Shown: positions 1,918 to 25,633 of the stretch, one piece after another
Position numbering within the stretch: position 1 is the stretch's first letter
Layout: every line of letters starts with the position of its first letter
Assembly: GCA_002783405.1 (NCBI GenBank)
Contig: PFGG01000031.1
Coordinates: forward strand, 1-35,278
Direction of reading: 5' to 3'
DNA length: 35,278 nucleotides
Origin: a bacterium (Candidatus Blackallbacteria) CG13_big_fil_rev_8_21_14_2_50_49_14
Lineage (GTDB): Bacteria; Cyanobacteriota; Sericytochromatia; UBA7694
Made by a program: the position numbers and the translations under genes
Notes under the pieces: generated by a model
What the model saw: only the letters and a program-made list of their open reading frames with translations
Told to the model about the DNA's origin: nothing
Databases searched by the model: none

Positions 1918-1921
<4 letters not shown>
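1757..1921 (-). CDS. ccoQ: cbb3 oxidase small subunit CcoQ
   Basis: 54-residue single-pass membrane protein, found by reading the gap between ccoNO and ccoP. It begins MKSEVLAYFN, has one hydrophobic helix (about residues 16-34) and then the sequence WVFQPWRKP, which resembles the CcoQ/FixQ region after the helix. CcoQ stabilises the cbb3 complex. Its ATG overlaps the TGA of the upstream ccoNO gene (ATGA, positions 1918-1921), and its TAA abuts the ccoP ATG, so all three are likely translationally coupled. Assignment rests on size, topology, the motif and position in the operon. Tiny proteins of this kind are weakly conserved, but in this position no other identity is plausible. Confidence 0.88.
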
Positions 1922-4134
<2,213 letters not shown>

Positions 4135-13547: not shown

Positions 13548-15605
13548 TTATTCAGGCTTTGAAATACCTGGGGGCACGTCTCCTGCGACCAGTGCCTCCA
13601 TAAAATCTGAAAATTCTTTAACGATTTCCCGATCTTCAAAAAGAATGCTACGGGCCAAGGTACCTTCAATAATCGTTTTGCGCAGTTCAGGCTGGCTGGC
13701 ATAAAGAATCGCCTTTTGAATATAGTCTTCCAGATCATGCGCGACAGTATCCATCAGTTGCATTTTTTGATAGAGTGCAGCCGTAATGCGACCGACCATG
13801 CGCTCAGTCGGTAAAGTCACAATCGGAATGCCATAGGCCATGGCCTGGTAGGTGGTCGTACCGCCCCCATAATAGAGTGGGTCAAGCACCACATCGGTCA
13901 CGCGCAAAAGTCCCAGATAGTCTTCAACGGGCATTTCCGGCAGAACCCAAATCCGCTCCATGACCTCAGGAATCGTACGCTGAAAGCGTTTGAGCAAGAG
14001 TTGACAGAGATGCTCCTGGGTGGAGGTCGCCACCAAAACCAAGTGCCCTTTGGGATCTCTGAGCAGAATTTCTTTGACCACGGGATCAAAATCAGGGTGA
14101 AATTTGAGCAGATTCTGCGGGCAGGCGTAAAGGTGCTCGACCTCTGCAAGCCCAAAATCAGCACGGCTGACTGACTGCTCAGGAAAAGGATAAAGCGGAA
14201 GATGCGAAGGCAGGGTTTTAAAACGAACAAGTGTTTCAGAGTAATCCGCTTCAGCATCCGGGCGTTCAATCAGCTCACTTGAAAAAAAATAATCCATTTC
14301 AGGCAAACCACTGGTGCCCGGATTCATCCAGGAGGTGGCCTGGGCCCGTGCCAAACGCAAAGAAGCCAGTGAATACTGAAAATAATCCCAATTGGGTTCA
14401 GTGAACATCAGCAAATCGAGTTCTTCTTCGCGAATCTGGCGGGCTGCTTCCTGAAAATCCTTGGAAATGACCTGGTAGCTGGCATTGGGATGGCTGAAAC
14501 GATAGCGGTTCTGAGGATTGAAAATCTGACTGACCTTGGGAGAATTGCAAAAGACCGTAATTTTATAGCGTTCGGGATCCATTTCATTGAAAAGCGCACC
14601 CGCATAGGCAAACGCCAAATTCACACTTTTGCTGGAACAAATCAGACCCAAATGAATCCATTTGCGGGTATGGGGACGTGGCTCCCAGGGCGCTAACTGA
14701 GTTTCGGGCAAAAGCACGGGCAAAAGCGCGGCAAACTGGCGCCGAATCGGCAGGGGGTTGTAGTGATGATAGGCAATATGCACAATATTGGATTGAATCA
14801 TGCTGAAATATTGATGGTTTTTTTCGTGAAATTTAAGGGTGCGCTTGCGTAAACCCTGTTCAAAATCCGTCAAAGCCTGCTGAATTTTGACTTGAAACTG
14901 CTCTATCTGCTGGCGGGAGGCCATCACATAGGGATAGGCCAGATCCCGTTTTAATTTCCACAGCACCGCTCCCCCTGTCGCTCCCATGGCTTCGTTATAA
15001 CAACGCAGGGCAGACTCATATTCGCCATTGCGCTCCAACAGGTAGCCCATAAAAAACGAGATCAAAGGCAAACTGGGGGCATGGATTTTGCCCAAAGCCA
15101 TAAAACACGCCAGTGCGCTGTCCATATCGCCTTTGGATTGCAAACTTTCAGCCAGTAAAAAATAGGTAAGGGGTTCAGTGGGTTCAATCTCCAAGGCTTT
15201 GAGGTAAAAAGAAATCGCAAGTTCATCCTGGTCCATGCGGCTGAGCATACGTGCAAAACGCAGATAGGCATCCCCGGTTTCAGGCTGCGGGGTTCTGAGC
15301 AGATATTCTCCATAGGCCATAAACGAACGGTAAAAATCATTGTGGTCTTCGTAATAAGCACCCAGTTTTAAATAAGCCGGTGAATAGCGGCGATTGGAGA
15401 CCATCGCCTGGCGGTAGTATTTCGCAGCCAAATCTGAATTTTCTTGTTTTTCAGCCTGCAAGCCCAATTGAAAAAAGGCCTGATAAGCACGGGGATTCAG
15501 GCGGGTGACGCGTCGAAAAAGTTTCTGGGCGCGGGCCACTTCCCCGCGCCGCTGAAGTTTCAGCGCCTGGCGCAAGATTCTGTGGGCCTGGGCATTTGCG
15601 GCCAT
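13548..15605 (-). CDS. TPR protein with SPINDLY/O-GlcNAc-transferase-like (GT41) domain
   Basis: 685-residue predicted cytosolic glycosyltransferase. The N-terminal ~250 residues are tetratricopeptide repeats (for example the LFRRVTRLNPRAYQAFFQLG and FYLKALEIEPTEPLTYFLLA units). The C-terminal half has GT41 landmarks: DYFFSSELIERP, LKFHPDFDP (Lys in the nucleotide-sugar site), and YYGGGTTTYQA (about 578-588) followed by GIPIVTL. These correspond to the UDP-sugar binding region of OGT and COG3914 proteins. Bacterial members glycosylate proteins (for example flagellin or adhesins) or have unknown targets. The start at 15605 is supported by GAGAGGG about 8 bases upstream. The next gene downstream is the HEAT-repeat protein, after about 100 bases. 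Donor and acceptor cannot be read from sequence. Confidence 0.82.
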   Translation of the reverse strand: MAANAQAHRILRQALKLQRRGEVARAQKLFRRVTRLNPRAYQAFFQLGLQAEKQENSDLAAKYYRQAMVSNRRYSPAYLKLGAYYEDHNDFYRSFMAYGEYLLRTPQPETGDAYLRFARMLSRMDQDELAISFYLKALEIEPTEPLTYFLLAESLQSKGDMDSALACFMALGKIHAPSLPLISFFMGYLLERNGEYESALRCYNEAMGATGGAVLWKLKRDLAYPYVMASRQQIEQFQVKIQQALTDFEQGLRKRTLKFHEKNHQYFSMIQSNIVHIAYHHYNPLPIRRQFAALLPVLLPETQLAPWEPRPHTRKWIHLGLICSSKSVNLAFAYAGALFNEMDPERYKITVFCNSPKVSQIFNPQNRYRFSHPNASYQVISKDFQEAARQIREEELDLLMFTEPNWDYFQYSLASLRLARAQATSWMNPGTSGLPEMDYFFSSELIERPDAEADYSETLVRFKTLPSHLPLYPFPEQSVSRADFGLAEVEHLYACPQNLLKFHPDFDPVVKEILLRDPKGHLVLVATSTQEHLCQLLLKRFQRTIPEVMERIWVLPEMPVEDYLGLLRVTDVVLDPLYYGGGTTTYQAMAYGIPIVTLPTERMVGRITAALYQKMQLMDTVAHDLEDYIQKAILYASQPELRKTIIEGTLARSILFEDREIVKEFSDFMEALVAGDVPPGISKPE

Positions 15606-15618
15606 AGCGCTCACCCTC

Positions 15619-15861
15619 TCAAATTCTGAAAATGCCGTAAGGATCACGGCGTGATTTCAGTTTTTCTGGAGCAGAAAGCGCTTTGAGTAGCTGTGCGGCC
15701 AGCTCTCTTAATTCAGCGTTGCTTTCCTGTTTCAGATAGGCCACCAAAACAGGAATGGCATCCGGGCTGCCCTGCTCTGACAAACGCAAGAGCAAGCGTC
15801 TCCGGATTTCAGGATCCGGGCTCTCAAACAAAATTGAAGTATCAGGGCAATTGAAATTCAT
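15619..15861 (-). CDS. Small HEAT-repeat protein
   Basis: 80-residue protein with about two HEAT-like units (SPDPEIRRRLLLRLSEQGSPDA, then NAELRELAAQLLKALSAPE), so it resembles a fragment of the large HEAT protein nearby. The ATG at 15861 is chosen, and a TTG 15 codons upstream keeps the frame open. It overlaps the end of the ABC transporter gene by 20 bases and ends 13 bases before the TPR/GT41-like start, suggesting one transcription unit. Function unknown; probably a small protein-interaction module. Confidence 0.7.
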   Translation of the reverse strand: MNFNCPDTSILFESPDPEIRRRLLLRLSEQGSPDAIPVLVAYLKQESNAELRELAAQLLKALSAPEKLKSRRDPYGIFRI

Positions 15862-17506
15862 GGGCCTGTACAGGTGAAGAGTGTGTCCTGATTGTACCAC
15901 GTTCAAACACGAAAACCTGGGGCAAAGCAGCCAGGGTTTCTGGGCGATGGCTGACCAGCAAACAGCTCATGTCTGGATATTCAGCCCGCAAAGCCGCAAA
16001 GATCAGGGCCTCCGTCTGCAGATCCAACTCAGAGGTGGCTTCGTCCAAAAGCAGAACAGCAGGCTGGGCCAAAAGCGCGCGCGCCAAAGCCACACGCTGG
16101 CGTTCTCCCCCCGAAAAAAAACTGCCCTGATTGCCCATCAAACTTTCGGCCCCCTCTGGCAAAGCAGCCAGAACCGTCTCCAACTGACAGACTTGAAGCA
16201 GACGCTGCCATTCTGCCTCACTGATCTCGCGGCCCAGGCAGATATTTTCGCGCAGACTGCGGTTAAAAAAACCTGCTTTCTGAGGCACCAAGACCACCCG
16301 CAAAGCCTCAGGCAAAGTCTGAACTTTGCCCTGAGTGGCCGCTAATTGCCCAGCCAGAATCGCAAGCAGGGAAGATTTCCCACAGCCCGAAGGCCCTGCC
16401 AGAGCGGCCCAGGAGCCTGGCTCCAAAACCAGAGTAAGCGCATTGAAAAGGGGGGGTTGTTCTGGATAGGCAAAGCCCAAGTCCACTGTTTGGATTTTCC
16501 CAACTGGAGCCTGTTCTGTTTCTTTCATATCCTCTGGAATGAACGCTTCAAGCTCCTGAATCCGCTCCTGGGCGGGTTGCGCCGCATGCACCACGCCCCA
16601 GGCCTGAACCAAGGCCAGAACCGGATCTACACCCAAAGCCAAAGCAGTGCCAAAGGCCAATAAATCCCCGCCGGTTACCCATTTCTGCTCCACTTGCCAG
16701 ATACCCGCAATCAAAACCAGGCCGATCGCCAAAACCTGGATCAGCGTTAAAAGAGGGCCTTGGATTGCCTGCCAGGCCAATTGACGTATTTGTGAGGCCA
16801 AAATAGTTTGCTGAAGTGCTTCCACACGGCTCTCCAGCCAGGTATGGATACGCAAGGGCCACAAACTGGGCAAAGCCTGAAAGGTTTCACTCAATTCCTG
16901 GTGCAAGGCTCCCCGCCCTTGCATCTGCTGACGCGCCCAAAAGTTGAGGGGCCTCCCCGTTAAAACCAGGGTGCGCGATCCCAAGGGCAAAAGCAGCAGG
17001 GTCAGCAGGGTCAGCCCCACATTCATCCACAACAGGCTGCCCAGCAGGGCCAAGCTCAGAATCAGGTTGGGAAAAAAATGTGCAAGTTGCTGCTGACGGG
17101 CCCCTTCCATCTGTTGCAAATCACTGCTGAGGCGTGAGAGCAAATCCCCCGTTTGCCAGGACTGCCACTTCCAAAGCGGCTGCCGCAATAGCTGTTGATA
17201 AATCCGCAGACGGCATTGATGGGTATGAACATAGGCCAACCAGCCCCAGAGCAGGGTCTGTATCCAATAGAAAAATCCCTTGGCCGCATAGACGCCTAAA
17301 ATCAAACCCAAGAGGGCCATAAAACGGGAAAGATTCACGCCCTGAAACAGGCTTTCGAGTTGACGGGCCAAGGGAATCAGCAGCAGGGTCAGCGCCAGAT
17401 GCAGACACAAACAAAGCAGGGCACAGAAACAAACCCAAGGATGGGATTTTAGCCAGGAAAAACGCCACACAATGGCTTCGCTTAACAGGACGCTTTCAAA
17501 TACCAC
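15842..17506 (-). CDS. ABC exporter, fused membrane and ATPase domains
   Basis: 554-residue half-transporter of the MsbA/CydCD type. The N-terminal ~300 residues contain about six hydrophobic helices and an intracellular-loop motif (TGDLLSRLSSDL). The nucleotide-binding domain has Walker A GPSGCGKSS, a Q-loop (VPQKAGFFN), signature FSGGERQRVALARAL, Walker B VLLLDEATSELD and switch His (VSHRPET). All catalytic elements are present. A homodimer or a partner is needed, and no second ABC gene is adjacent. The start codon is uncertain: the GTG at 17506 overlaps the FMN reductase gene by 25 bases and lacks a clear ribosome site, and a GTG 12 codons later is an alternative. The cargo is unknown. Confidence 0.88.
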   Translation of the reverse strand: MVFESVLLSEAIVWRFSWLKSHPWVCFCALLCLCLHLALTLLLIPLARQLESLFQGVNLSRFMALLGLILGVYAAKGFFYWIQTLLWGWLAYVHTHQCRLRIYQQLLRQPLWKWQSWQTGDLLSRLSSDLQQMEGARQQQLAHFFPNLILSLALLGSLLWMNVGLTLLTLLLLPLGSRTLVLTGRPLNFWARQQMQGRGALHQELSETFQALPSLWPLRIHTWLESRVEALQQTILASQIRQLAWQAIQGPLLTLIQVLAIGLVLIAGIWQVEQKWVTGGDLLAFGTALALGVDPVLALVQAWGVVHAAQPAQERIQELEAFIPEDMKETEQAPVGKIQTVDLGFAYPEQPPLFNALTLVLEPGSWAALAGPSGCGKSSLLAILAGQLAATQGKVQTLPEALRVVLVPQKAGFFNRSLRENICLGREISEAEWQRLLQVCQLETVLAALPEGAESLMGNQGSFFSGGERQRVALARALLAQPAVLLLDEATSELDLQTEALIFAALRAEYPDMSCLLVSHRPETLAALPQVFVFERGTIRTHSSPVQAHEFQLP

Positions 17507-18099
17507 CCCGCAAAGCCCTGCTCAATTGATTTGTCAGGGTTTTGACGGGCCACTTCACGATCTTCGTTGAATTGCTGGCGCAAGATCTGTCCATAGACTA
17601 CCGTATCGCGTCCCATTCTTTGCAGACGCTCTACAACGCTTGTATTTTGAAGGCTACCATCAGCGCCAAAATCAGCCTCACGGGCCGCAGCCTGATAGGG
17701 CAGAGCCCAGCCGTGACAATGCTGCACGGCCACGCGCATCTGGGTAATACAACTCACCCCCAAACTGCCCCCGGTCGAAGCCGCCAGAGCAAAGACCTTG
17801 CCCGCAAATTCATGGTAATGAAAATCAAAGAAATTTTTCATCCAACCGGTCATACAGCCATGGTATTCAGGTGAAACCAAAATAAAAGCATCCGCCGATT
17901 GACAGACCTGACGAACCTGGCTGACAATTGCGTCATGCTCATAGGTTTCATCGGTGCGAAAGAGTGGCAGGGGAGTGGCCAATAAATCCAATTCATCCAC
18001 TTCCGCTCCGGCCGCCCGGGCAGAATCTGCAATTATTTCCAAAATACGCCTGGAATTGCTTTCCTGGTGCGTGCTGCCATAAACGGCAAGGATTTTCAT
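17482..18099 (-). CDS. NADPH-dependent FMN reductase-like flavoprotein
   Basis: 205-residue flavodoxin-fold protein. It starts MKILAVYGSTHQESNSRRIL, where the GSTxxxSxxxR loop binds FMN phosphate. The family motif SPEYHGCMTGWMKNFFDF follows near residues 75-92, and a second flavin-contact segment (ALAASTGGSLGV) comes later. The ATG at 18099 has GGAGG five bases upstream, so an upstream in-frame start is not used. Proteins of this family reduce flavins, quinones, chromate or azo compounds using NAD(P)H, and the physiological substrate cannot be assigned. It lies 114 bases downstream of the nucleotidyltransferase gene. Confidence 0.85.
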   Translation of the reverse strand: MKILAVYGSTHQESNSRRILEIIADSARAAGAEVDELDLLATPLPLFRTDETYEHDAIVSQVRQVCQSADAFILVSPEYHGCMTGWMKNFFDFHYHEFAGKVFALAASTGGSLGVSCITQMRVAVQHCHGWALPYQAAAREADFGADGSLQNTSVVERLQRMGRDTVVYGQILRQQFNEDREVARQNPDKSIEQGFAGWYLKASC

Positions 18100-18213
18100 G
18101 GGGGCCTCCACAGTTCTATCACTCAAAATTCAGGTACTATCTTACCACAGGGCCCAAGCCCCTGCCGCAGGTTCAAGCGCCCTGAAACAAGAGCAGATCT
18201 GGGCTGAAAAAGC

Positions 18214-18969
18214 TCAGTGAACCCCCAAAGGCAAAGCCAGTTCTCCCCGCACCAGCCAATCTTGATACAAACGCAGATCCTCAGGGGTATCCAATTCCAA
18301 CCAGGGTTCAGCCACGGGCAAAACCGAAATTTCATGCTGCCGCCGCAAAAGCAATTGCAGAAGAGAGGTCATATCCAAGCGATCGGCAGCTTCCTGTGAG
18401 AGGGCCTCAAGTGCCGCTTCAATCCAGCCCCAAGCAAGGGGGGTTATTTTCAAAAGCCCCATATACTGCCCTTCAATCTGCTCGAGGGCCGTGGCTCTTT
18501 GGCCAATTTCAGTCAAGCAACCAGCGCCATTGCTGCGAAAGGTTTCAGCATCCGCCAAAGGATCTGCGAATCGGGCTTCCCAAAGCCTGCGCCACTGGGT
18601 ATTCGAAGAGATCACCAACGCTCCTGGCGCTTGAATCAAGCGCTGAATACACACCGAGGTGGTCAGAATATCCGCATAACTGATCAAACAGGGGGCTTCC
18701 CGCAGCCAATCAGCCGCACACACCAGAGACTTCACCATTTGAGTCGTTTGCCAACGCGGATTGAAAAAGCCTGTGGTTTCAGGCAAATCCAGACATTCAG
18801 AACGGTAGCCTTTGACAATGCCGATCTGCTCACAGCCTCCTTCCCGCAGAGCGGCGATCTGCCAGCTCAAAAGAGGTTTCCCCCCTAATTCCACCAAGCC
18901 CTTGGGCAAAGCTTCGGTCATAGCGCCCAAACGGCTGCCCCGGCCTGCCGCCAGAATTATTGCGCGCAT
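18214..18969 (-). CDS. Nucleotidyltransferase, predicted CTP:phosphoglutamine cytidylyltransferase (Cj1416-like)
   Basis: 251-residue NTP transferase. The nucleotide loop LAAGRGSRLG (6-15) leads into LPKGLVELGGKPLL (catalytic-type K23 and K31). The metal-binding acidic residue is in SYADI (D100), and a late WLELDTPEDL (around 223-232) supplies the second acidic site typical of sugar-phosphate and phosphocholine cytidylyltransferases. By itself it could only be called a sugar or choline nucleotidyltransferase. The specific prediction comes from context. In C. jejuni the same-order neighbour Cj1416 joins CTP and L-glutamine phosphate (amide-phosphorylated) to give gamma-glutamyl-CDP-amidate. 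The start overlaps the hydrolase gene upstream by 13 bases, implying coupled translation. Confidence 0.75.
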   Translation of the reverse strand: MRAIILAAGRGSRLGAMTEALPKGLVELGGKPLLSWQIAALREGGCEQIGIVKGYRSECLDLPETTGFFNPRWQTTQMVKSLVCAADWLREAPCLISYADILTTSVCIQRLIQAPGALVISSNTQWRRLWEARFADPLADAETFRSNGAGCLTEIGQRATALEQIEGQYMGLLKITPLAWGWIEAALEALSQEAADRLDMTSLLQLLLRRQHEISVLPVAEPWLELDTPEDLRLYQDWLVRGELALPLGVH

Positions 18970-19565
18970 CTTGAAAATACCTCTTGAAAAAATTGCAAAT
19001 CACCGGCCCTGAAAGGCGAAAGCCTTTCGGGATGCCACATGATGCCCCACCAGGGCAGTTCATGATGGCGCAGCGCTTTGATCACCCCATCGTGAGAATG
19101 GGCAAGGCTCTCGCAGGGCCCGCTGTCAGAAGAGGTTCCCCACTGGTGATAGGAATTGACCTGAATCCATTCGCCGCGAAAGCAGACTTCCTGTTCAGCC
19201 TGAACATGTCCACTCAGTGGCACCAATTCAACCCCCAATGCAGCCTGCATCACCTGCATGCCACGGCAAACACCCAAAACAGGCAAACGCTTTTCCTCGG
19301 CCTTTTGCAAAAGCGCAAATTCAAGCGCATCGCGTTCAGGCGCATCGCCTCCATAACGCTGTAAGCTATTGCCGCCCGTCAAAAGCAAGCCCTGAACGGG
19401 GTGTGTCGTGAGCATTTCCATGGCAAGCTCCAATTGATTAGGCAAAAGCAAAGGCAAAAAACCGGCCTGATATAAAAACGCTGACCAACGCTGATCCAGG
19501 GCATCACGGCGCTCCTGAATCTCAGCATGCACTTCCACCCGCTGCGTTACCGCCAGCCATTTCAT
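18957..19565 (-). CDS. Class I glutamine amidotransferase-like hydrolase, predicted gamma-glutamyl-CDP-amidate hydrolase (Cj1417-like)
   Basis: 202-residue protein of the peptidase C26/PuuD-type glutamine amidotransferase fold. The oxyanion segment is LLLTGGNSL (61-68), the nucleophile elbow GVCRGMQ gives C100, and WHPER gives H178 and E180, so the triad is complete. No synthase partner of the usual glutamine-dependent kind is adjacent, which argues for a stand-alone gamma-glutamyl hydrolase. In the C. jejuni MeOPN pathway Cj1417 cleaves gamma-glutamyl-CDP-amidate to glutamate plus CDP-amidate (cytidine diphosphoramidate). Gene order here is the same. It overlaps the upstream kinase by four bases (ATGA) and the downstream cytidylyltransferase by 13 bases. 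Confidence 0.8.
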   Translation of the reverse strand: MKWLAVTQRVEVHAEIQERRDALDQRWSAFLYQAGFLPLLLPNQLELAMEMLTTHPVQGLLLTGGNSLQRYGGDAPERDALEFALLQKAEEKRLPVLGVCRGMQVMQAALGVELVPLSGHVQAEQEVCFRGEWIQVNSYHQWGTSSDSGPCESLAHSHDGVIKALRHHELPWWGIMWHPERLSPFRAGDLQFFQEVFSRCAQ

Positions 19566-21880
19566 GCCAGCACCATCACCTGCCGAGAGGCACAGTCCAA
19601 TTCCAATTCACGGGCCTTTTGCCATTGCTGGTAAAGCACCTCCCCTGCGCCAATGACAGCAGGTATCCCCATTTCACCAGCCCGAATCGCCATATGTGAG
19701 TTCACACCCCCATAGAGCGTAATCAAACCTGCAATGCCATAGCCAAAGATCCAGTCATAACCAGGATCAGCACTGGGAATTAAGAGAATTGCCCCTCCCA
19801 GAGATTCGGGAGAAGCATCGGCAAAACGCACAGGGCCTTTGGCGCGCTTCAGGGTCACAAAATTGGGCTCACCTGGCAAATATTCAAACTGCCAGATATC
19901 TTCCGGACGGGTAATCAGAGGAGGCAAGACCAGTGAACGGGTCAATAGATCTTGCTGCCGGCCCGCCTCAACCAGCGTTTTTAAGGCCCAATCAAGATCG
20001 TAGCTGCTGCCCACCCTGCGAAGCAGCGCTTGAATGTCTAAAAATGAGCAATCCTCTCTGCTCAAGCCATATTCGCCCCCCAACCCTGCAATGGCTTCCA
20101 GCACATCACTGAGATTGCGTGTAAACAAAAATTTCGCGTATTCACGCCCTTCAATCGCAGCCTTGATAAAATCAAAAAGCTCAAGAACATCCAATTCCAG
20201 ACCATGGCTTTGCAAAAGCTGACGGATTTGCTTCAGTTGCTCCAGGCTTAAACTGAAGACCGGTGAAGCTTGGGGTTCTACAGGCGTTCCAAAATAACGT
20301 TCAGGAGCCCGGTCATAGCGCTCAGACAGAATATCGTAAGTACCTGGCCGCAAATGTCCATAGATCTCCAAAAAAGCAGGCCGACTGAGACGGTAATAAT
20401 CCCGCTGAATTCGGCTGCTGACCGTATCCAAACTCTGCATATAACAGGCCCGTTCATTCAAACTGAGCACACCCGTTTGCACCAACGAGTTCAACATTTG
20501 CACGGCGATAAAACCCGCACGTGCCAATCCGGCAAAGGGCAAGGTACCGTAACGCTTACAATCTTCGAGCAGCCAATAAATCCGATCCAGCCCCCCCAAA
20601 TCCGAAGCCAGCAGTTCTTTCCGCCTTGTTTCAAGAATCTTTAGACGGGCAATGTCTTTTTTCCACAGCCCTGTTTCCTGGTGCAGGATCCGATTGGTAA
20701 GCTGACGCAGACTTTCAGCCAGCAGATCGCATTCAAGCTGAGAAAAACCACGGTTTTGCAGAAGCTTTAAACGGGCAGGCAAATCCAAAGTATAGCAAGA
20801 GAACAGAATCTCAAACTCCACCTTGTCATGAAAATCTGGGCTTTCTAGCAAACGTTGAATCGAGTCATTTACCAGTTTTTCAGCCAATTCCGAGGGTAAA
20901 TCAGCAGGAATAAAGGAGTTAAAGCTCACCCGAACATCAATATAGGGGCATCCCCCCAAACTGACCATCAAAGGAAAACTGCGCAGGTTGCGATAACCAT
21001 AATTATCGCGCTGATAGGCCCAGATACTGTCTGTAATCAGTTCCTGATAAAGTGTCCGCGCCAAAGGACGGGGGCGAATCCCGATAATCTCAGCGGGATT
21101 CCAATCGGGCATCACCCCGTAAACCGTTCTTTGGCCATAGAGAAAGGGATGGGGAGATTGCATGGGCTTAAGAAATTGAGCCACCTGTTGCATTCCCCGA
21201 AACTGACGCTCAGGGGCAAACTGCGCAGAAATTTTCAACGAGCGCACCTGAAAGAGCACCCATTGACCCGCATGGGTATAGGCAACTTCCAGATCAAGCG
21301 CCGTTTGGGGAAAGATTGCCTGCAGTTCTCTAACCAAAGCGACAAGCCCTGCAAAACGCACTTCTGGTTCAACTGGATTTTCATGCAAATAATAATGCCA
21401 GGTATGCAAATCATTGGATTGGCCTGCGGTAACAGCTGTTGTATCGGTACTGCAGTCATGGTAATTAAAAACCAGACAGGGAGCCCCCGTACTGGGTTCA
21501 GAACTGAAAGCGACCCCACTGAAAGCAATCTCCTGCAGCATGGGCTGCACAAAAATCTGATCCTGTCCGGAGCGGCCCTGATAACTTGCACAAACCCGAT
21601 CAATCGCAGCGCTCAAAGCCTGATCGCCCTTCACATTCAAAACAGAGCAGTAATGCCCTGCCAAAGATCTTCCCGCAGCATCTTCATCCAGAGCACTGCT
21701 GCGCACAATCAGACAGGTATCGGATTCAAACACCGCAGAAATACGAGCTAAAACAACTGAGGGTTCTGTTTCCCAGGTTCGCATATCAAACAAAACCTGA
21801 GGCAAAACCTGTGCGGAATGAAGCTTTCCATGAAGTGCAGCTAAAGACTCGGCCTTTGTTGAGTCTAAAATCGTCACCAT
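19562..21880 (-). CDS. PEP-synthase-like kinase, predicted L-glutamine kinase (Cj1418-like)
   Basis: 772-residue protein built like a phosphoenolpyruvate synthase. It has an N-terminal ATP-binding domain (RSSALDEDAAGRSLAGHY near 60-77, then IFVQPMLQEIAFSGVAFSSE), a long helical middle, and a C-terminal swivelling phosphohistidine domain. The last reads GGVNSHMAIRAGEMGIPAV with the predicted phospho-acceptor at H729. The PEP/pyruvate-binding barrel of true PEP synthases is missing and the length is that of Cj1418. Cj1418 transfers the beta-phosphate of ATP through a histidine to the amide nitrogen of L-glutamine, creating a P-N bond. The ATG at 21880 follows the upstream methyltransferase stop by one base, and the open frame extends 19 codons further upstream. 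The general family is certain; the glutamine specificity is inferred from context. Confidence 0.82.
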   Translation of the reverse strand: MVTILDSTKAESLAALHGKLHSAQVLPQVLFDMRTWETEPSVVLARISAVFESDTCLIVRSSALDEDAAGRSLAGHYCSVLNVKGDQALSAAIDRVCASYQGRSGQDQIFVQPMLQEIAFSGVAFSSEPSTGAPCLVFNYHDCSTDTTAVTAGQSNDLHTWHYYLHENPVEPEVRFAGLVALVRELQAIFPQTALDLEVAYTHAGQWVLFQVRSLKISAQFAPERQFRGMQQVAQFLKPMQSPHPFLYGQRTVYGVMPDWNPAEIIGIRPRPLARTLYQELITDSIWAYQRDNYGYRNLRSFPLMVSLGGCPYIDVRVSFNSFIPADLPSELAEKLVNDSIQRLLESPDFHDKVEFEILFSCYTLDLPARLKLLQNRGFSQLECDLLAESLRQLTNRILHQETGLWKKDIARLKILETRRKELLASDLGGLDRIYWLLEDCKRYGTLPFAGLARAGFIAVQMLNSLVQTGVLSLNERACYMQSLDTVSSRIQRDYYRLSRPAFLEIYGHLRPGTYDILSERYDRAPERYFGTPVEPQASPVFSLSLEQLKQIRQLLQSHGLELDVLELFDFIKAAIEGREYAKFLFTRNLSDVLEAIAGLGGEYGLSREDCSFLDIQALLRRVGSSYDLDWALKTLVEAGRQQDLLTRSLVLPPLITRPEDIWQFEYLPGEPNFVTLKRAKGPVRFADASPESLGGAILLIPSADPGYDWIFGYGIAGLITLYGGVNSHMAIRAGEMGIPAVIGAGEVLYQQWQKARELELDCASRQVMVLA

Positions 21881-21881
21881 A

Positions 21882-22655
21882 TCAAGCACATTTTTTCCTG
21901 GATCTAACTGTCCAAGCGCGGGTTTGGTAAGGCACAATCACTTCATCTAAATGTTCAATCTCTTTCTCAATTGCTGCCAATATGAGTTTAAATCGCTCAG
22001 GGCCGGCCTGGGCCTGAATATCATTTACAGATCGCCAAGCCCCTAAATACCGCTCTGGCGTCATTTGAACTTCATGAGGTGCCTGCATAAAAATCAAATC
22101 GGTAAAATGACCCGTACTCAAAAGTTTCGCATCCAAATCTTCAGTAAAACGACTTGAGCCTGAGGAAACTCGCTGAATTTCTGGTGCAATTTCATAAATT
22201 TTGGCCTCAATGCGCTGATGCAATTCATTTGCCTCTAAATTGCGCGGATTCCACAAAGCCGTAAAATATCCACCGGGCTTTAAGATGCGTGAAAATTCTG
22301 CCAAAGTTTTGGGGTAATCCGTCCAATGAAAAGAAGAAGCCATCAAAATCCAATCCGCATAATTATCAGGTAAACCCGTCATTTCAGCAGACCCTTCACT
22401 CCAAATCACATGGGAATGATTGACCTGAGAAATCCCCTCAGAACGCATCGCCTGGTTGGGTTCTACAGCATGGATCCGAAACCCTAATTCCAATAAGTTC
22501 TCTGTTAATTTACCTGTACCTGCACCAATATCGGCCACTTGGAAATCTTCTCTCCAGGCCCCCACATAAGCAGCCAATGATTTAAGCACTCTCAAAGAAT
22601 AGCCCGTACGATGCCTATACGCTTGAGCCAGTTCTGAAAAATCACCCTGTTTCAT
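21882..22655 (-). CDS. SAM-dependent methyltransferase (Cj1419/Cj1420-type position)
   Basis: 257-residue class I methyltransferase. It begins FSELAQAYRHRTGYS, has motif I DIGAGTGKL (42-50), the acidic loop VEPN, a post-strand-4 segment ASSFHW and ILKPGGYFTALWNPRNL. Its architecture and ends (IVPYQTRAWTVR) closely parallel the next methyltransferase upstream, so the two are paralogues. In C. jejuni two methyltransferase genes occupy this place (Cj1419, Cj1420) and are thought to supply the O-methyl group of MeOPN. It is first in a block of four tightly coupled genes, with a 219-base gap before it that contains a TATAAT element and a short inverted repeat. Confidence 0.8.
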   Translation of the reverse strand: MKQGDFSELAQAYRHRTGYSLRVLKSLAAYVGAWREDFQVADIGAGTGKLTENLLELGFRIHAVEPNQAMRSEGISQVNHSHVIWSEGSAEMTGLPDNYADWILMASSFHWTDYPKTLAEFSRILKPGGYFTALWNPRNLEANELHQRIEAKIYEIAPEIQRVSSGSSRFTEDLDAKLLSTGHFTDLIFMQAPHEVQMTPERYLGAWRSVNDIQAQAGPERFKLILAAIEKEIEHLDEVIVPYQTRAWTVRSRKKCA

Positions 22656-22709
22656 GAAAACAGCCTACCTTGAGAATTATTTAACTATTTCTGAATTCTC
22701 ATGCCAAAG

Positions 22710-22730
22710 AACCAAACCAAGGATTTGGTT
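22710..22730 (-). repeat. Short inverted repeat in the leader of the methyltransferase-kinase operon
   Basis: AACCAAA at 22710-22716 and TTTGGTT at 22724-22730 form a 7-bp stem with a 7-base loop. It lies between a putative -10 element and the methyltransferase start, so it would be in the 5' leader of the transcript or act as an operator. No T-run follows on the transcript, so it is not a plain terminator. Confidence 0.4.
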
Positions 22731-22765
22731 GAAACAAAATGCCAGCAAAGAATTGAATACTATCA

Positions 22766-22771
22766 ATTATA
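22766..22771 (-). promoter_or_regulatory. Possible -10 element for the methyltransferase-glutamine kinase operon
   Basis: The minus strand reads TATAAT, preceded by TTG, about 110 bases before the methyltransferase start. No clear -35 is seen. If real, the last four pathway genes can be transcribed separately from the first methyltransferase. The rest of the 219-base gap shows no gene. Confidence 0.35.
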
Positions 22772-22874
22772 CAAGCTTCGTAAAATCAGCCGCTAAAACG
22801 CTTGCTGATCCGCATAAAAAACCAACTTTCTCGCACAGAAAAAGCACCTGAAACACACCCAAGGCAAGCGAATA

Positions 22875-23627
22875 TCACACCATGATTTGGCCATACCAAA
22901 TGCGGGTGATATAGGGTATTTCAAGAGTGGTTTCAACCTGAGATTTTAAATAATTTTCAATCGCGGCAATGACCTGTTCAAAATTCTCTTTGGCCTGTCT
23001 TTGCAGAGTTGCGTGAGAACGCCAGGCGGTTAGACAATCATGAAGACTCTGCTGATGCACAATACGCCCCTCCCCCTCAAAAACCTGCTCAAAATAACCA
23101 CTTTGTTCAAGAAAATCACGCTGGTTCTCGCGGCGAGTCCCGTAATCATAACCAGGAATAGCTTCTGAAATAATCTTTTCAATCCCTTTTTGAATGGGGT
23201 CTTCTAGATCGCGGTGATTCCACATACAGGCAAACCACCCCCCTGGTTTTAAAATTCGACGGGTTTCTGCCAGGGTCAAAAGACGATCCGTCACATTAAA
23301 CGAGGAGCCAAAGCTTACCAAATCATAGGCAGTTGAAGTTCGACCTGTGTTTTCACCCGTTCCCTCATACCAATTGACCTTTTCAAAGCTCTTCGTTTGC
23401 ATTGTTCCCAATTCACGCATCCGATCATTCGGCTCAACGGCATCCACAAAATAACCGCGCTGGGCCAAAAGTTTGGTCAAATGCGCAACACCCGCCCCGA
23501 CATCGCAAACCCTTGCATTGTCGGGAATTTGCATAAAATCCAGCATGGCATCAACAGCGTCTTTGGCATAGTCAGGACGTTGCAAATAGGCCTCTGCTAA
23601 TTCTGTATAATTCCATTCTGTTTTCAT
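22875..23627 (-). CDS. SAM-dependent methyltransferase (second paralogue, Cj1420-like position)
   Basis: 250-residue class I methyltransferase beginning MKTEWNYTELAEAYLQRPDYA. Motif I is DVGAGVAHL (42-50), where the third glycine of the usual GxGxG is replaced. An acidic VEPNDRMRE loop and RILKPGGWFACMWNHRDL follow, and the C-terminal IPYITRIWYG matches the paralogue downstream. Predicted role, by gene order with C. jejuni, is methyl transfer in O-methyl phosphoramidate synthesis or a related step. It is divergent from the kinase gene at 23727 across a 99-base AT-rich gap with a possible TATACA -10 element at 23660-23665. By eye its base composition is lower in GC than the flanking housekeeping genes, which may reflect transfer. 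Confidence 0.78.
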   Translation of the reverse strand: MKTEWNYTELAEAYLQRPDYAKDAVDAMLDFMQIPDNARVCDVGAGVAHLTKLLAQRGYFVDAVEPNDRMRELGTMQTKSFEKVNWYEGTGENTGRTSTAYDLVSFGSSFNVTDRLLTLAETRRILKPGGWFACMWNHRDLEDPIQKGIEKIISEAIPGYDYGTRRENQRDFLEQSGYFEQVFEGEGRIVHQQSLHDCLTAWRSHATLQRQAKENFEQVIAAIENYLKSQVETTLEIPYITRIWYGQIMV

Positions 23628-23726
23628 TTCAAAAATATCCTTGGTAGATTTTCTTTCATTGTATACTTAGTCAAACACAAGACCAATTGAAATAAATACA
23701 TAAAAAATCTGTGAAACACCAAAACA

Positions 23727-24278
23727 ATGGTAGCCAAAGACAGAGTAGATTTTTTTGAGAAAAACAAGGTTTACTGGCTCACGGGTCTGGCTGGCTCAGG
23801 CAAAAGCACCCTTGGCAAACAGCTTTGGCAGACACTGCGCTCCGCAGGCCAAGCTACAGTCTATCTTGATGGCGATGTTTTGCGCGAAGTTTTTGGAAAA
23901 ACCAAGGGATACAGCCGTGCTGAGCGTTTGGAACTGGCCTGGCGCTACAGCCATATGTGTCATATGCTTTCAATACAAGGCCTGAACGTCGTTTGTGCCA
24001 CGATTTCGCTCTTCCACGAGGTACAGGCTTGGAATCGCAAAAACTTACCCGGCTATATTGAAATTTTTCTGGATACCCCCTTTGAAATACTTCAGGAACG
24101 GGATCAAAAATCCCTTTACAGCAAAGCATTGGCAGGAGAAATCAAAGAGGTTGTAGGTGTAGATATTGAACCCGAATGGCCACAAAAACCGGATATTCAC
24201 CTGGTTTATCAGCCAGGTCTTTCTCCTGAGGAGTGTTTTATCGATTTACAGAAGCAAATTCAACGGTTACCAAAATAA
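23727..24278 (+). CDS. APS-kinase-like P-loop kinase, predicted CDP-amidate kinase (Cj1415-like)
   Basis: 183-residue kinase of the CysC fold. It has a P-loop GLAGSGKST (20-28), the DGD metal-site motif (48-50), RDQKSLYSKA and VVGVD. Genuine APS kinases usually carry an FISP(F/Y)R segment after the second helix pair, and here it reads ATISLFHE (91-98). The segment between DGD and this loop (GYSRAERLELAWR) also departs from the usual GFSxxDRxENIRR. No sulfate-assimilation gene is nearby, while the five other phosphoramidate-pathway-type genes are. Cj1415 was annotated as adenylylsulfate kinase but phosphorylates cytidine diphosphoramidate at the ribose 3' position. The gene is divergent from the methyltransferase. 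No good ribosome-binding site precedes the ATG. True APS kinase is the main alternative. Confidence 0.78.
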   Translation: MVAKDRVDFFEKNKVYWLTGLAGSGKSTLGKQLWQTLRSAGQATVYLDGDVLREVFGKTKGYSRAERLELAWRYSHMCHMLSIQGLNVVCATISLFHEVQAWNRKNLPGYIEIFLDTPFEILQERDQKSLYSKALAGEIKEVVGVDIEPEWPQKPDIHLVYQPGLSPEECFIDLQKQIQRLPK

Positions 24279-24522: not shown

Positions 24523-25633
24523 ATGGAGTTTCATGAAATTGAAGAGCCCCTGCGCCAATTAGAAGCGCAGTATCAAGATATCAGGAGGTCTCTTTGACCT
24601 CGCTGAATTAGCCTCCCGAATTGAAAGTCTTGAGATCGAAACCCAGCAACCGGGATTTTGGGATCGCCCCGATGAAGCCGCGCGCCGCTCACAGGAACTC
24701 ACCGCCCTACAAGAAGAGTATCAACGGATTGAACGTTGGGAAACCACCCTGAAAGACAGCCAGGAACTCCTGACCATGGCCCGCGAAGAAAATGACAGTT
24801 CCCTTTTGCCCGATGTGCTGACCCAACTGGAGGAGATGCAGAAAGAACTGCGTCAATGGGAAGTTGAACGCATGCTCAGCGGAGAATATGATCAGGCCCC
24901 TGCGATTGTCACGATTACCTCAGGCGAGGGCGGAACCGACGCTCAGGATTGGGCTGAAATTTTATTGCGCATGTATACCCGCTGGTGTGAAAAACGCAAA
25001 TTCAAAACCGATCTGATTTCCGTCACCGAAGGCGATGAAGCCGGAATTAAAAGTGCCACCCTCGTCGCCACCGGCAACCATGCCTATGGCCTGCTGAACG
25101 CCGAAAAAGGAACCCATCGCCTGGTTCGCATTTCGCCGTTTAACGCCAACGGCAAACGCCAGACCTCTTTTGCGTCGATTGAAGTGACTCCCGTGATTGA
25201 CGATCGAATCGAAGTCGAGATCAACCCTGTCGATCTCAAAATAGATACCTTCCGCTCAGGTGGAGCAGGGGGTCAGAATGTGAACAAGGTAGAAACCGCC
25301 GTGCGGATTACCCACTTACCCACAGGCATCGTTGTCGCCTGTCAGAATGAACGCTCTCAGCTGATGAACAAAGATACGGCTTTGAAAGTACTCAAGGCCA
25401 AACTCTACGAGCGCGAACGCCTGGCTCACCAGCAAAAACTGGCAGACATCAAAGGAGGACCGGTTTCAGCCAGCATGGGCAGCCAAATCCGCTCCTATGT
25501 TTTTCACCCCTATAAAATGGTAAAAGATCATCGTACAGATTTTGAGACCTCAAATCTCAGTGCCGTGATGGATGGTGAAATTGATGGCTTTATTGAGGCT
25601 TTTTTACGTCAAAACATGGCTGCGGTGGCCTAA
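24523..25633 (+). CDS. prfB: Peptide chain release factor 2 (RF2), programmed +1 frameshift
   Basis: Release factor recognising UAA and UGA stop codons on the ribosome. Translation begins at the ATG at 24523, runs 24 codons to CTT and meets an in-frame TGA at 24595-24597. A shift of +1 at CTT-T continues from GAC at 24596 to the stop at 25631-25633, giving about 369 residues (E. coli RF2 is 365). The stop-recognition tripeptide SPF occurs in VRISPFNAN and the catalytic GGQ in [13 protein letters not shown]. Without the shift only a 24-residue peptide is made, which is the known autoregulation: low RF2 favours the shift. The coordinates given span both frames. It is followed after one base by an unknown membrane protein gene. 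Confidence 0.97.
24583..24598 (+). promoter_or_regulatory. Programmed +1 frameshift site of prfB
   Basis: AGGAGG (24583-24588), a 3-base spacer, then CTT TGA C (24592-24598). The internal Shine-Dalgarno-like element at three bases from the CTT slip codon and the poor-context TGA stop reproduce the conserved E. coli arrangement exactly. Confidence 0.95.

Follow-up and report, generated by a model that had tools for sequence, protein, structure and literature searches.

A Campylobacter-type phosphoramidate gene cassette in a Candidatus Sericytochromatia genome and its predicted link to sulfotransferase-fold enzymes

Introduction

Can a bacterium outside Campylobacter make an activated phosphoramidate, and which protein fold would pass the group on to its acceptor? 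The question is raised by six genes in a 35,278-nucleotide stretch of DNA (the window, by which we mean the whole stretch), which corresponds to contig C31 in a Candidatus Sericytochromatia metagenome-assembled genome (MAG) of 5.65 Mb that is 96% complete (G000). The genes encode two methyltransferases (MT1 and MT2), a kinase with domains of the phosphoenolpyruvate (PEP) synthase type (KIN), a class I amidotransferase-like hydrolase (HYD), a cytidylyltransferase-like protein (CT) and a protein of the adenosine 5'-phosphosulfate (APS) kinase fold (APSK). We consider it likely that this organism would make a phosphoramidate donor by the route known from Campylobacter jejuni, and that sulfotransferase-fold enzymes of a family we call A2 would transfer the group to an acceptor, probably a surface glycan. 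What is new here is how widely the cassette occurs, together with our suggestion that phosphoramidation follows the same logic as sulfation.

The C. jejuni proteins Cj1415-Cj1418 convert glutamine, adenosine triphosphate (ATP) and cytidine triphosphate (CTP) into cytidine diphosphate (CDP)-phosphoramidate 3'-phosphate, the likely donor of the O-methyl phosphoramidate (MeOPN) group (PMC11800397). Cj1418 is a glutamine kinase and the first enzyme found to transfer phosphate to an amide nitrogen (PMC10971088); Cj1416 is a CTP:phosphoglutamine cytidylyltransferase, Cj1417 a gamma-glutamyl-CDP-amidate hydrolase, Cj1415 (cysC) a CDP-amidate kinase, and Cj1419 and Cj1420 are methyltransferases (PMC11202532). 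The last two have no assigned function because their knockouts changed nothing, and deletion of Cj1421 or Cj1422 removes MeOPN from one sugar each (PMC11800397). An unmethylated phosphoramidate is borne by the lipopolysaccharide (LPS) of Xanthomonas and Shewanella (PMC3907429). The chemistry has been described as confined to Campylobacter, with phrases such as 'C. jejuni-specific glutamine kinase' (PMC9561416) and 'so far only identified in Campylobacter' (PMC6429109).

The gene set recurs at kinase loci in about ten phyla

An initial annotation of the window had placed six genes here, five of them consecutive on one strand and the APS-kinase-like gene divergent from them; all of the open reading frames (ORFs) are present in that arrangement, and Pfam confirms the families claimed, namely two methyltransferases, a kinase without the pyruvate barrel, a GATase-like hydrolase, a nucleotidyltransferase and an APS kinase (Table 1). 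The order of transcription is MT1-MT2-KIN-HYD-CT, with neighbours overlapping or abutting except for MT1 and MT2, which are 219 bp apart; since CT overlaps HYD and HYD overlaps KIN the five genes look like a single operon. The start of APSK lies on the opposite strand, 99 bp away from MT1. The claim that the genes keep the order of Cj1420-Cj1415 holds for five of the six, which run as Cj1420-Cj1416; APSK is displaced and divergent.

Scanning one genome per GTDB species with an alignment of the kinase (A1) returned at least 564 relatives, of which the best 80 (45-72% identity) were examined with their flanks; eight further loci from plasmids bring the set to 88. APSK, KIN, HYD and CT stand together in 71 of these loci (hereafter complete cassettes) and are joined by at least one methyltransferase in 62, and in nine loci APSK and KIN are fused as one uninterrupted reading frame. 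The recurrence of the gene set is far beyond chance, since it is met in 62 of 88 kinase loci, yet HYD is rare in the window's own phylum (just 4 of 386 sampled genomes). The cassette loci cover about ten phyla, among them Pseudomonadota, Bacillota (many gut Lachnospiraceae), Acidobacteriota, Verrucomicrobiota, Planctomycetota, Spirochaetota, Nitrospinota and Melainabacteria, so that the pathway gene set does indeed occur outside Campylobacter, as had been proposed. The named relatives nearest by kinase are two Candidatus Sericytochromatia MAG loci, L019 (72% identity) and L020 (59%). No Campylobacter locus is among the best 80 of the at least 564 relatives; plasmids and viral contigs yielded no Campylobacter cassette, and viral contigs no match to the kinase.

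Kinase, hydrolase and cytidylyltransferase

Over its full length KIN scores 922 bits on the model PRK05849 (NCBIfam cut-off 501), a family that we take to include Cj1418, against 38-52 bits on the Rph and PEP-synthase models. Pfam recognizes PPDK_N and the PEP-utilizers mobile domain in it and no PEP/pyruvate barrel domain, and the histidine of the GGxNSHM motif is invariant across alignment A1. KIN thus falls outside the true PEP and rifampicin-type kinases, a point on which the initial annotation had staked its reading in advance; ordinary PEP synthase was considered and rejected. Its probable start codon is the ATG at position 21880, which follows the MT2 stop by two bases; the protein then has 772 amino acids, and histidine H748 is renumbered H729.

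The top NCBIfam model for HYD is NF045546, gamma-glutamyl-CDP-amidate hydrolase, at 109.5 bits, with the runner-up at 42.5 and the equivalog cut-off of 250 not reached. The triad C100/H178/E180, which the initial annotation had given for a stand-alone amidotransferase-like hydrolase, is kept in 86 of 86 cassette hydrolases. CT, which adjoins the kinase and hydrolase in the window, is a predicted CTP-type nucleotidyltransferase (NTP_transf_3), the closest solved structure being CTP:phosphocholine cytidylyltransferase; it is found at 85 of 89 kinase-bearing loci, the window counted.

APSK is set apart from genuine APS kinases

A maximum-likelihood tree parts the 72 cassette APSKs from 20 genuine CysC proteins (from E. 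coli and phylum-mates of the window) by one branch with 100/100 support. Residues invariant in CysC are replaced in the cassette proteins (N and R of ENIRR, P of ISP, F and T of FTGID) at positions that we take to line the APS pocket, and the cassette family has signature residues of its own (C78, Q84, W102 and N103). On the model PRK05541, named adenylyl-sulfate kinase, the window APSK scores 190.9 bits but E. coli CysC just 102, against a cut-off of 127, and the model therefore appears to describe the cassette family. Given the separate clade and the altered residues we rejected genuine CysC as a reading of APSK, and this second point named beforehand, that the P-loop kinase lies outside genuine CysC, came out in favor of the initial annotation. 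Its expectation that automatic labels would scatter these genes among unrelated functions was likewise correct: the RefSeq and PLSDB homologues are called 'PEP-utilizing enzyme', 'gamma-glutamyl-gamma-aminobutyrate hydrolase', 'phosphocholine cytidylyltransferase' and 'adenylyl-sulfate kinase'. Overall, what the initial annotation observed is borne out and its reading is supported; it did not mention how widespread the gene set is, the sulfotransferase-fold family as the likely transferase or a part for CysQ.

Might APSK, together with the sulfotransferase-fold genes described below, instead serve ordinary sulfation from 3'-phosphoadenosine 5'-phosphosulfate (PAPS), unrelated to KIN-HYD-CT? 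Annotation pipelines do name APSK 'adenylyl-sulfate kinase', PAPS is the usual sulfotransferase donor, and in a Vibrio locus (L014) cysDN lies beside the kinase. Against this, no ATP sulfurylase (PF01747) was found in G000, in the same-genus genome G001 or in G004, APSK forms its separate clade with altered substrate-site residues, and nine loci have it fused to the kinase and most have the two in one operon, so that we find the PAPS reading hardly credible. APSK is the sole APS_kinase homologue in G000, and for the sole PAPS_reduct (PF01507) match in that genome no CysD model matched and CysH models scored far under their cut-offs; G001 has no PAPS_reduct match and no ATP-sulfurylase match. 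The G000 match (L113 1483-2298, from G000:C69) is a PAPS-reductase-like protein with weak matches to PRK13795-type, DndC and CysH models; it lies beside a gene for a long unknown protein and is possibly a defence or DNA-modification gene.

Two methyltransferase subfamilies that seldom share a cassette

MT1 and MT2 are 35% identical over 247 amino acids and belong to distinct subfamilies (METHYLTRANSFERASES). An MT1 relative is present in 37 of the 71 complete cassettes and an MT2 relative beside the kinase in 31: MT1 only in 31, MT2 only in 25, both in six and neither in nine (p = 1e-6 for near-exclusivity, with kinship ignored). That the two are nearly mutually exclusive suggests that they do the same job, and their mutual substitution may explain the lack of a phenotype in single Cj1419 or Cj1420 knockouts.

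These counts bear on a different product for the same cassette, in which the gene set is expressed and yields an unmethylated or otherwise substituted phosphoramidate, for example through another amide donor or N-methylation. The nine complete cassettes without either methyltransferase, the unmethylated phosphoramidate on Xanthomonas and Shewanella LPS (PMC3907429) and the silent knockouts of Cj1419 and Cj1420, which have no assigned function (PMC11800397), all speak for such a product. The window, however, carries both MT1 and MT2, as C. jejuni carries two methyltransferases, and the C. jejuni product is O-methylated; for this organism we judge a product other than an O-methylated one very unlikely.

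A sulfotransferase-fold family accompanies the cassette

When all ORFs of the 88 neighbourhoods were clustered, one recurrent family outside the core genes was found beside the cassette, and this is A2. It is strongly detected by iterated profile search in 22 of the 88 loci, in 19 of which it lies within about 140 bp of the cassette or inside it. A gene with any sulfotransferase domain is present in 31 of 72 loci with APSK versus one of 16 without it (p = 0.008, kinship ignored). Several cassette-linked A2 members pass the Pfam Sulfotransfer_3 cut-off, the A2 alignment retains the nucleotide-binding loop, an invariant histidine and the R-x-P of the 3'-phosphate site, and the predicted A2 structure has its best match in tyrosylprotein sulfotransferases bound to 3'-phosphoadenosine 5'-phosphate (E 7.5e-6, probability 1.00). 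A reading of A2 as AMP-ligases was rejected, because the true ligases (L044 and L060) had been joined to it by single linkage through a fusion in L090 and Pfam assigns A2 to the sulfotransferases. Cluster 6, whose ORFs run antisense to the cassette on the minus strand, was judged to consist of spurious ORFs in GC-rich DNA.

In the window no transferase gene adjoins the cassette. The same-genus genome has two Sulfotransfer_1 genes, more distantly related, within the cassette between APSK and MT1; G001 has eight sulfotransferase-fold places. G000 encodes two A2 members on other contigs (Table 1), with profile-search E values of 8e-63 (C74) and 2e-61 (C43) and Sulfotransfer_3 scores of 58.3 (C43) and 44.1 bits (C74) against a cut-off of 27. 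Since no source of PAPS was detected in G000, their donor is predicted not to be PAPS. A Sulfotransfer_1 protein on C35 falls outside A2 (a weak match, E 7e-6) and is not a preferred candidate, and plasmids searched with the organism's own A2 protein gave no match.

Across the 386 genomes of the phylum sample, full-length A2 (E < 1e-25) was found only in G000, G001, G342 and G164 (a 1.7 Mb genome, with the gene at G164:C1:636272-637246, L162), that is, in three of the four genomes with HYD versus one of the 382 without it (Fisher p = 1.7e-6). This co-occurrence is not mere linkage, since G342 carries its kinase, its HYD-CT pair and its APSK-MT-A2 group at three separate places.

A further gene fits the same pattern. 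Transfer from a 3'-phosphorylated CDP-amidate would leave cytidine 3',5'-bisphosphate (pCp), and a 3'(2'),5'-bisphosphate nucleotidase is therefore expected; a CysQ-like gene stands between HYD and CT in L030, L053, L064, L081 and L085 (broken) and ahead of APSK in L059. The L030 and L053 proteins pass the TIGR01331 equivalog cut-off, and that of L081 falls below it (199 of 228.8 bits).

A proposed route and its acceptor

The route that we infer would begin with KIN, which would phosphorylate glutamine with ATP to N-phosphoglutamine; CT would then couple N-phosphoglutamine with CTP to gamma-glutamyl-CDP-amidate, HYD would hydrolyze this to CDP-amidate, and APSK would phosphorylate CDP-amidate at the 3' position to 3'-phospho-CDP-amidate. 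Either MT1 or MT2, as interchangeable S-adenosylmethionine (SAM)-dependent enzymes, would add the methyl group. Because of its 3'-phosphate the donor would be a structural mimic of PAPS, and sulfotransferase-fold enzymes (in G000 the two unlinked Sulfotransfer_3 proteins on C43 and C74) would carry out the final transfer to the acceptor, most likely a surface glycan, with the CysQ-like 3'(2'),5'-bisphosphate nucleotidase recycling the leaving pCp. We predict donor synthesis as in C. jejuni with high confidence, by family and gene-order analogy, and transfer by A2 enzymes with moderate confidence; a surface glycan as the acceptor in this organism is put forward with moderate to low confidence.

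Several points weigh against the proposed route. The structure model for A2 is of moderate quality (mean predicted local distance difference test score, pLDDT, 71.7; template modelling, TM, scores 0.31/0.49), and the sulfotransferase-fold genes of G000 are unlinked to its cassette. G000 and G001 belong to the same genus and are not independent, so that the phylum count holds few independent cases; G164 is an exception to the co-occurrence, having an A2-like protein without the kinase or HYD, and in G004 (73% complete), which has the cassette, no A2 member was found. The 88 loci were selected by likeness to the window kinase, and percentages drawn from them describe that set only. HYD gains less than half of the bits that its curated model demands, the likeness to Cj1415-Cj1420 is one of families and of published gene names and order, and G000 is 96% complete, hence gene absences in it are not absolute.

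The acceptor is where a further alternative has to be weighed, in which the same activated donor is used for an exported small molecule, a lipid head group or a protein modification and not for a surface glycan. Both genomes of the genus carry genes for an ABC exporter and an FMN reductase downstream of the operon, the A2 genes of G000 lie outside any obvious polysaccharide locus, and in an Agrobacterium vitis locus (L016) KIN-HYD-CT without APSK stands beside LysE exporters, a CDP-alcohol phosphatidyltransferase and amino-acid enzymes. Many cassette loci, in contrast, lie in polysaccharide or flagellar regions, with DegT, epimerase, glycosyltransferase and flagellin or hook genes, and it is the capsule that bears the group in C. 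jejuni, where its use has been characterised; we therefore regard a product of this other kind as unlikely, and a surface glycan remains our preferred acceptor.

Flagellin-family genes adjoin the cassette in seven loci (L034, L062, L063, L065, L083, L086 and L088) and flagellar hook or rod genes adjoin Pseudomonas cassettes in L035, L038, L042 and L050, which makes flagellar glycans a good place to look for the phosphoramidate.

Gene layout and additional observations

Table 1. Genes of the cassette, neighbouring genes and A2 candidates elsewhere in the same genome
Feature	Position	Strand	Length (aa)	Assignment
CT	18214-18969	-		CTP:phosphoglutamine-type cytidylyltransferase, MobA-like NTP transferase fold; Pfam NTP_transf_3
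HYD	18957-19565	-		gamma-glutamyl-CDP-amidate hydrolase-like class I amidotransferase; Pfam GATase/Peptidase_C26
KIN	ORF 19562-21937, probable gene 19562-21880	-		L-glutamine (amide N) kinase-like; PPDK_N + PEP-utilizers mobile domain
MT2	21882-22655	-		SAM-dependent methyltransferase, MT2 subfamily; Pfam Methyltransf_11
MT1	22875-23627	-		SAM-dependent methyltransferase, MT1 subfamily; Pfam Methyltransf_11
APSK	23727-24278	+		CDP-amidate 3'-kinase-like, APS-kinase fold; Pfam APS_kinase; divergent from operon
FMN reductase	17482-18126	-		NADPH-dependent FMN reductase family protein; Pfam FMN_red; possible accessory gene
ABC exporter	15842-17506	-		transmembrane and nucleotide-binding domains; Pfam ABC_membrane, ABC_tran; possible accessory gene
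Own-genome A2	C74:11633-13390		585	A2 candidate
Own-genome A2	C43:43971-45182		403	A2 candidate

The FMN reductase has a 73% identical counterpart at the same position only in the same-genus locus L019, where the ABC exporter likewise has a counterpart in place (49% identical). Synteny with L019 extends over prfB, a pfkB kinase, DUF4330 and Wzy_C on one flank and over the FMN reductase, the ABC exporter and a TPR protein on the other, which argues against misbinning. The TPR protein (13548-15647), kept beside the cassette in L019, has a C-terminal Glyco_transf_41 (O-GlcNAc-transferase-like) domain. The prfB gene (24523-25633) has the classic programmed +1 frameshift (AGGAGGTCTCTTTGAC), with the shift site at about 24583-24599: a 5' frame of 24 codons stops at TGA and the gene resumes in the next frame, the known and ordinary autoregulation of release factor 2 (RF2). 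Elsewhere in the window, a cbb3 oxidase protein (1918-4134) has COX1 and FixO domains fused in one ORF of 738 amino acids.

Some plasmid and other loci depart from the usual cassette. L016 (8902-13991), on an Agrobacterium vitis plasmid, has KIN-HYD-CT without APSK followed by LysE and the CDP-alcohol phosphatidyltransferase, with an asparaginase, a TauD dioxygenase and an aminoacyl-tRNA-synthetase-related ligase around it; from its gene content it looks like a phosphoramidate small-molecule cluster in which CDP-amidate would be used directly. L014 (5496-14033), on a Vibrio alfacsensis plasmid, also has KIN-HYD-CT without APSK, and its neighbours are cysD, cysN, an SLC13 permease and a CDP-glycerol glycerophosphotransferase-like gene. 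In L012 (8290-11388), a cassette without APSK, the glutamine kinase has an N-terminal second nucleotidyltransferase-like domain (27% to CT). Plasmids of two unrelated root-nodule genera, Cupriavidus taiwanensis (L015, which also carries nifK) and Microvirga lotononidis (L017), have a stand-alone glutamine-kinase paralogue without HYD or CT, adjoining a conserved thiamine pyrophosphate-dependent enzyme and an aminotransferase.

Discussion

On a broader proposal we are evenly divided: that phosphoramidation is a general bacterial group-transfer system mimicking sulfation, with a 3'-phosphate handle on the donor (3'-phospho-CDP-amidate), a CysC-derived kinase, a CysQ-type recycler and, as the transferase, family A2, a branch of the sulfotransferase superfamily that had no assigned role. 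The system would be spread over about ten phyla, gut Lachnospiraceae among them, and mislabelled as sulfur metabolism. In C. jejuni the surface group with its phosphorus-nitrogen (P-N) bond is a phage receptor and aids serum resistance. If the proposal is true, surface chemistry of the P-N type would occur widely, in gut commensals and soil bacteria too. There would be testable answers to the questions of which fold transfers the group, why the donor has a 3'-phosphate (as a PAPS-like handle) and why single Cj1419 or Cj1420 knockouts are silent (MT1 and MT2 replacing each other), and many annotations would be corrected, for example that of the 'adenylyl-sulfate kinase' model PRK05541. In the literature searched, no paper mentions both an MeOPN transferase and a sulfotransferase; most subscription papers lie outside that search, which hence is not proof of novelty.

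Comparison with known systems

Three known systems resemble the locus in different ways. Rph and PEP synthase have ATP-binding and phosphohistidine domains in common with KIN but a different central region, and KIN is without the pyruvate barrel. Sulfate activation differs in that the cassette APSK does not group with CysC, its substrate-site residues are altered and ATP sulfurylase is undetected in the genome; the likeness consists in an APS-kinase-fold kinase that would add a 3'-phosphate, in adjacent sulfotransferase-fold proteins with the RxP motif and in a CysQ-like nucleotidase in several cassettes. Compared with the C. jejuni MeOPN locus, the window belongs to a different phylum, lies outside a capsule (kps) locus and is without an adjoining transferase gene, its APSK gene is found divergently oriented at the opposite end, and its hydrolase is under the curated equivalog cut-off. 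The two loci nevertheless share the same families, including an APS-kinase-like gene and two methyltransferases, and the same order of five genes.

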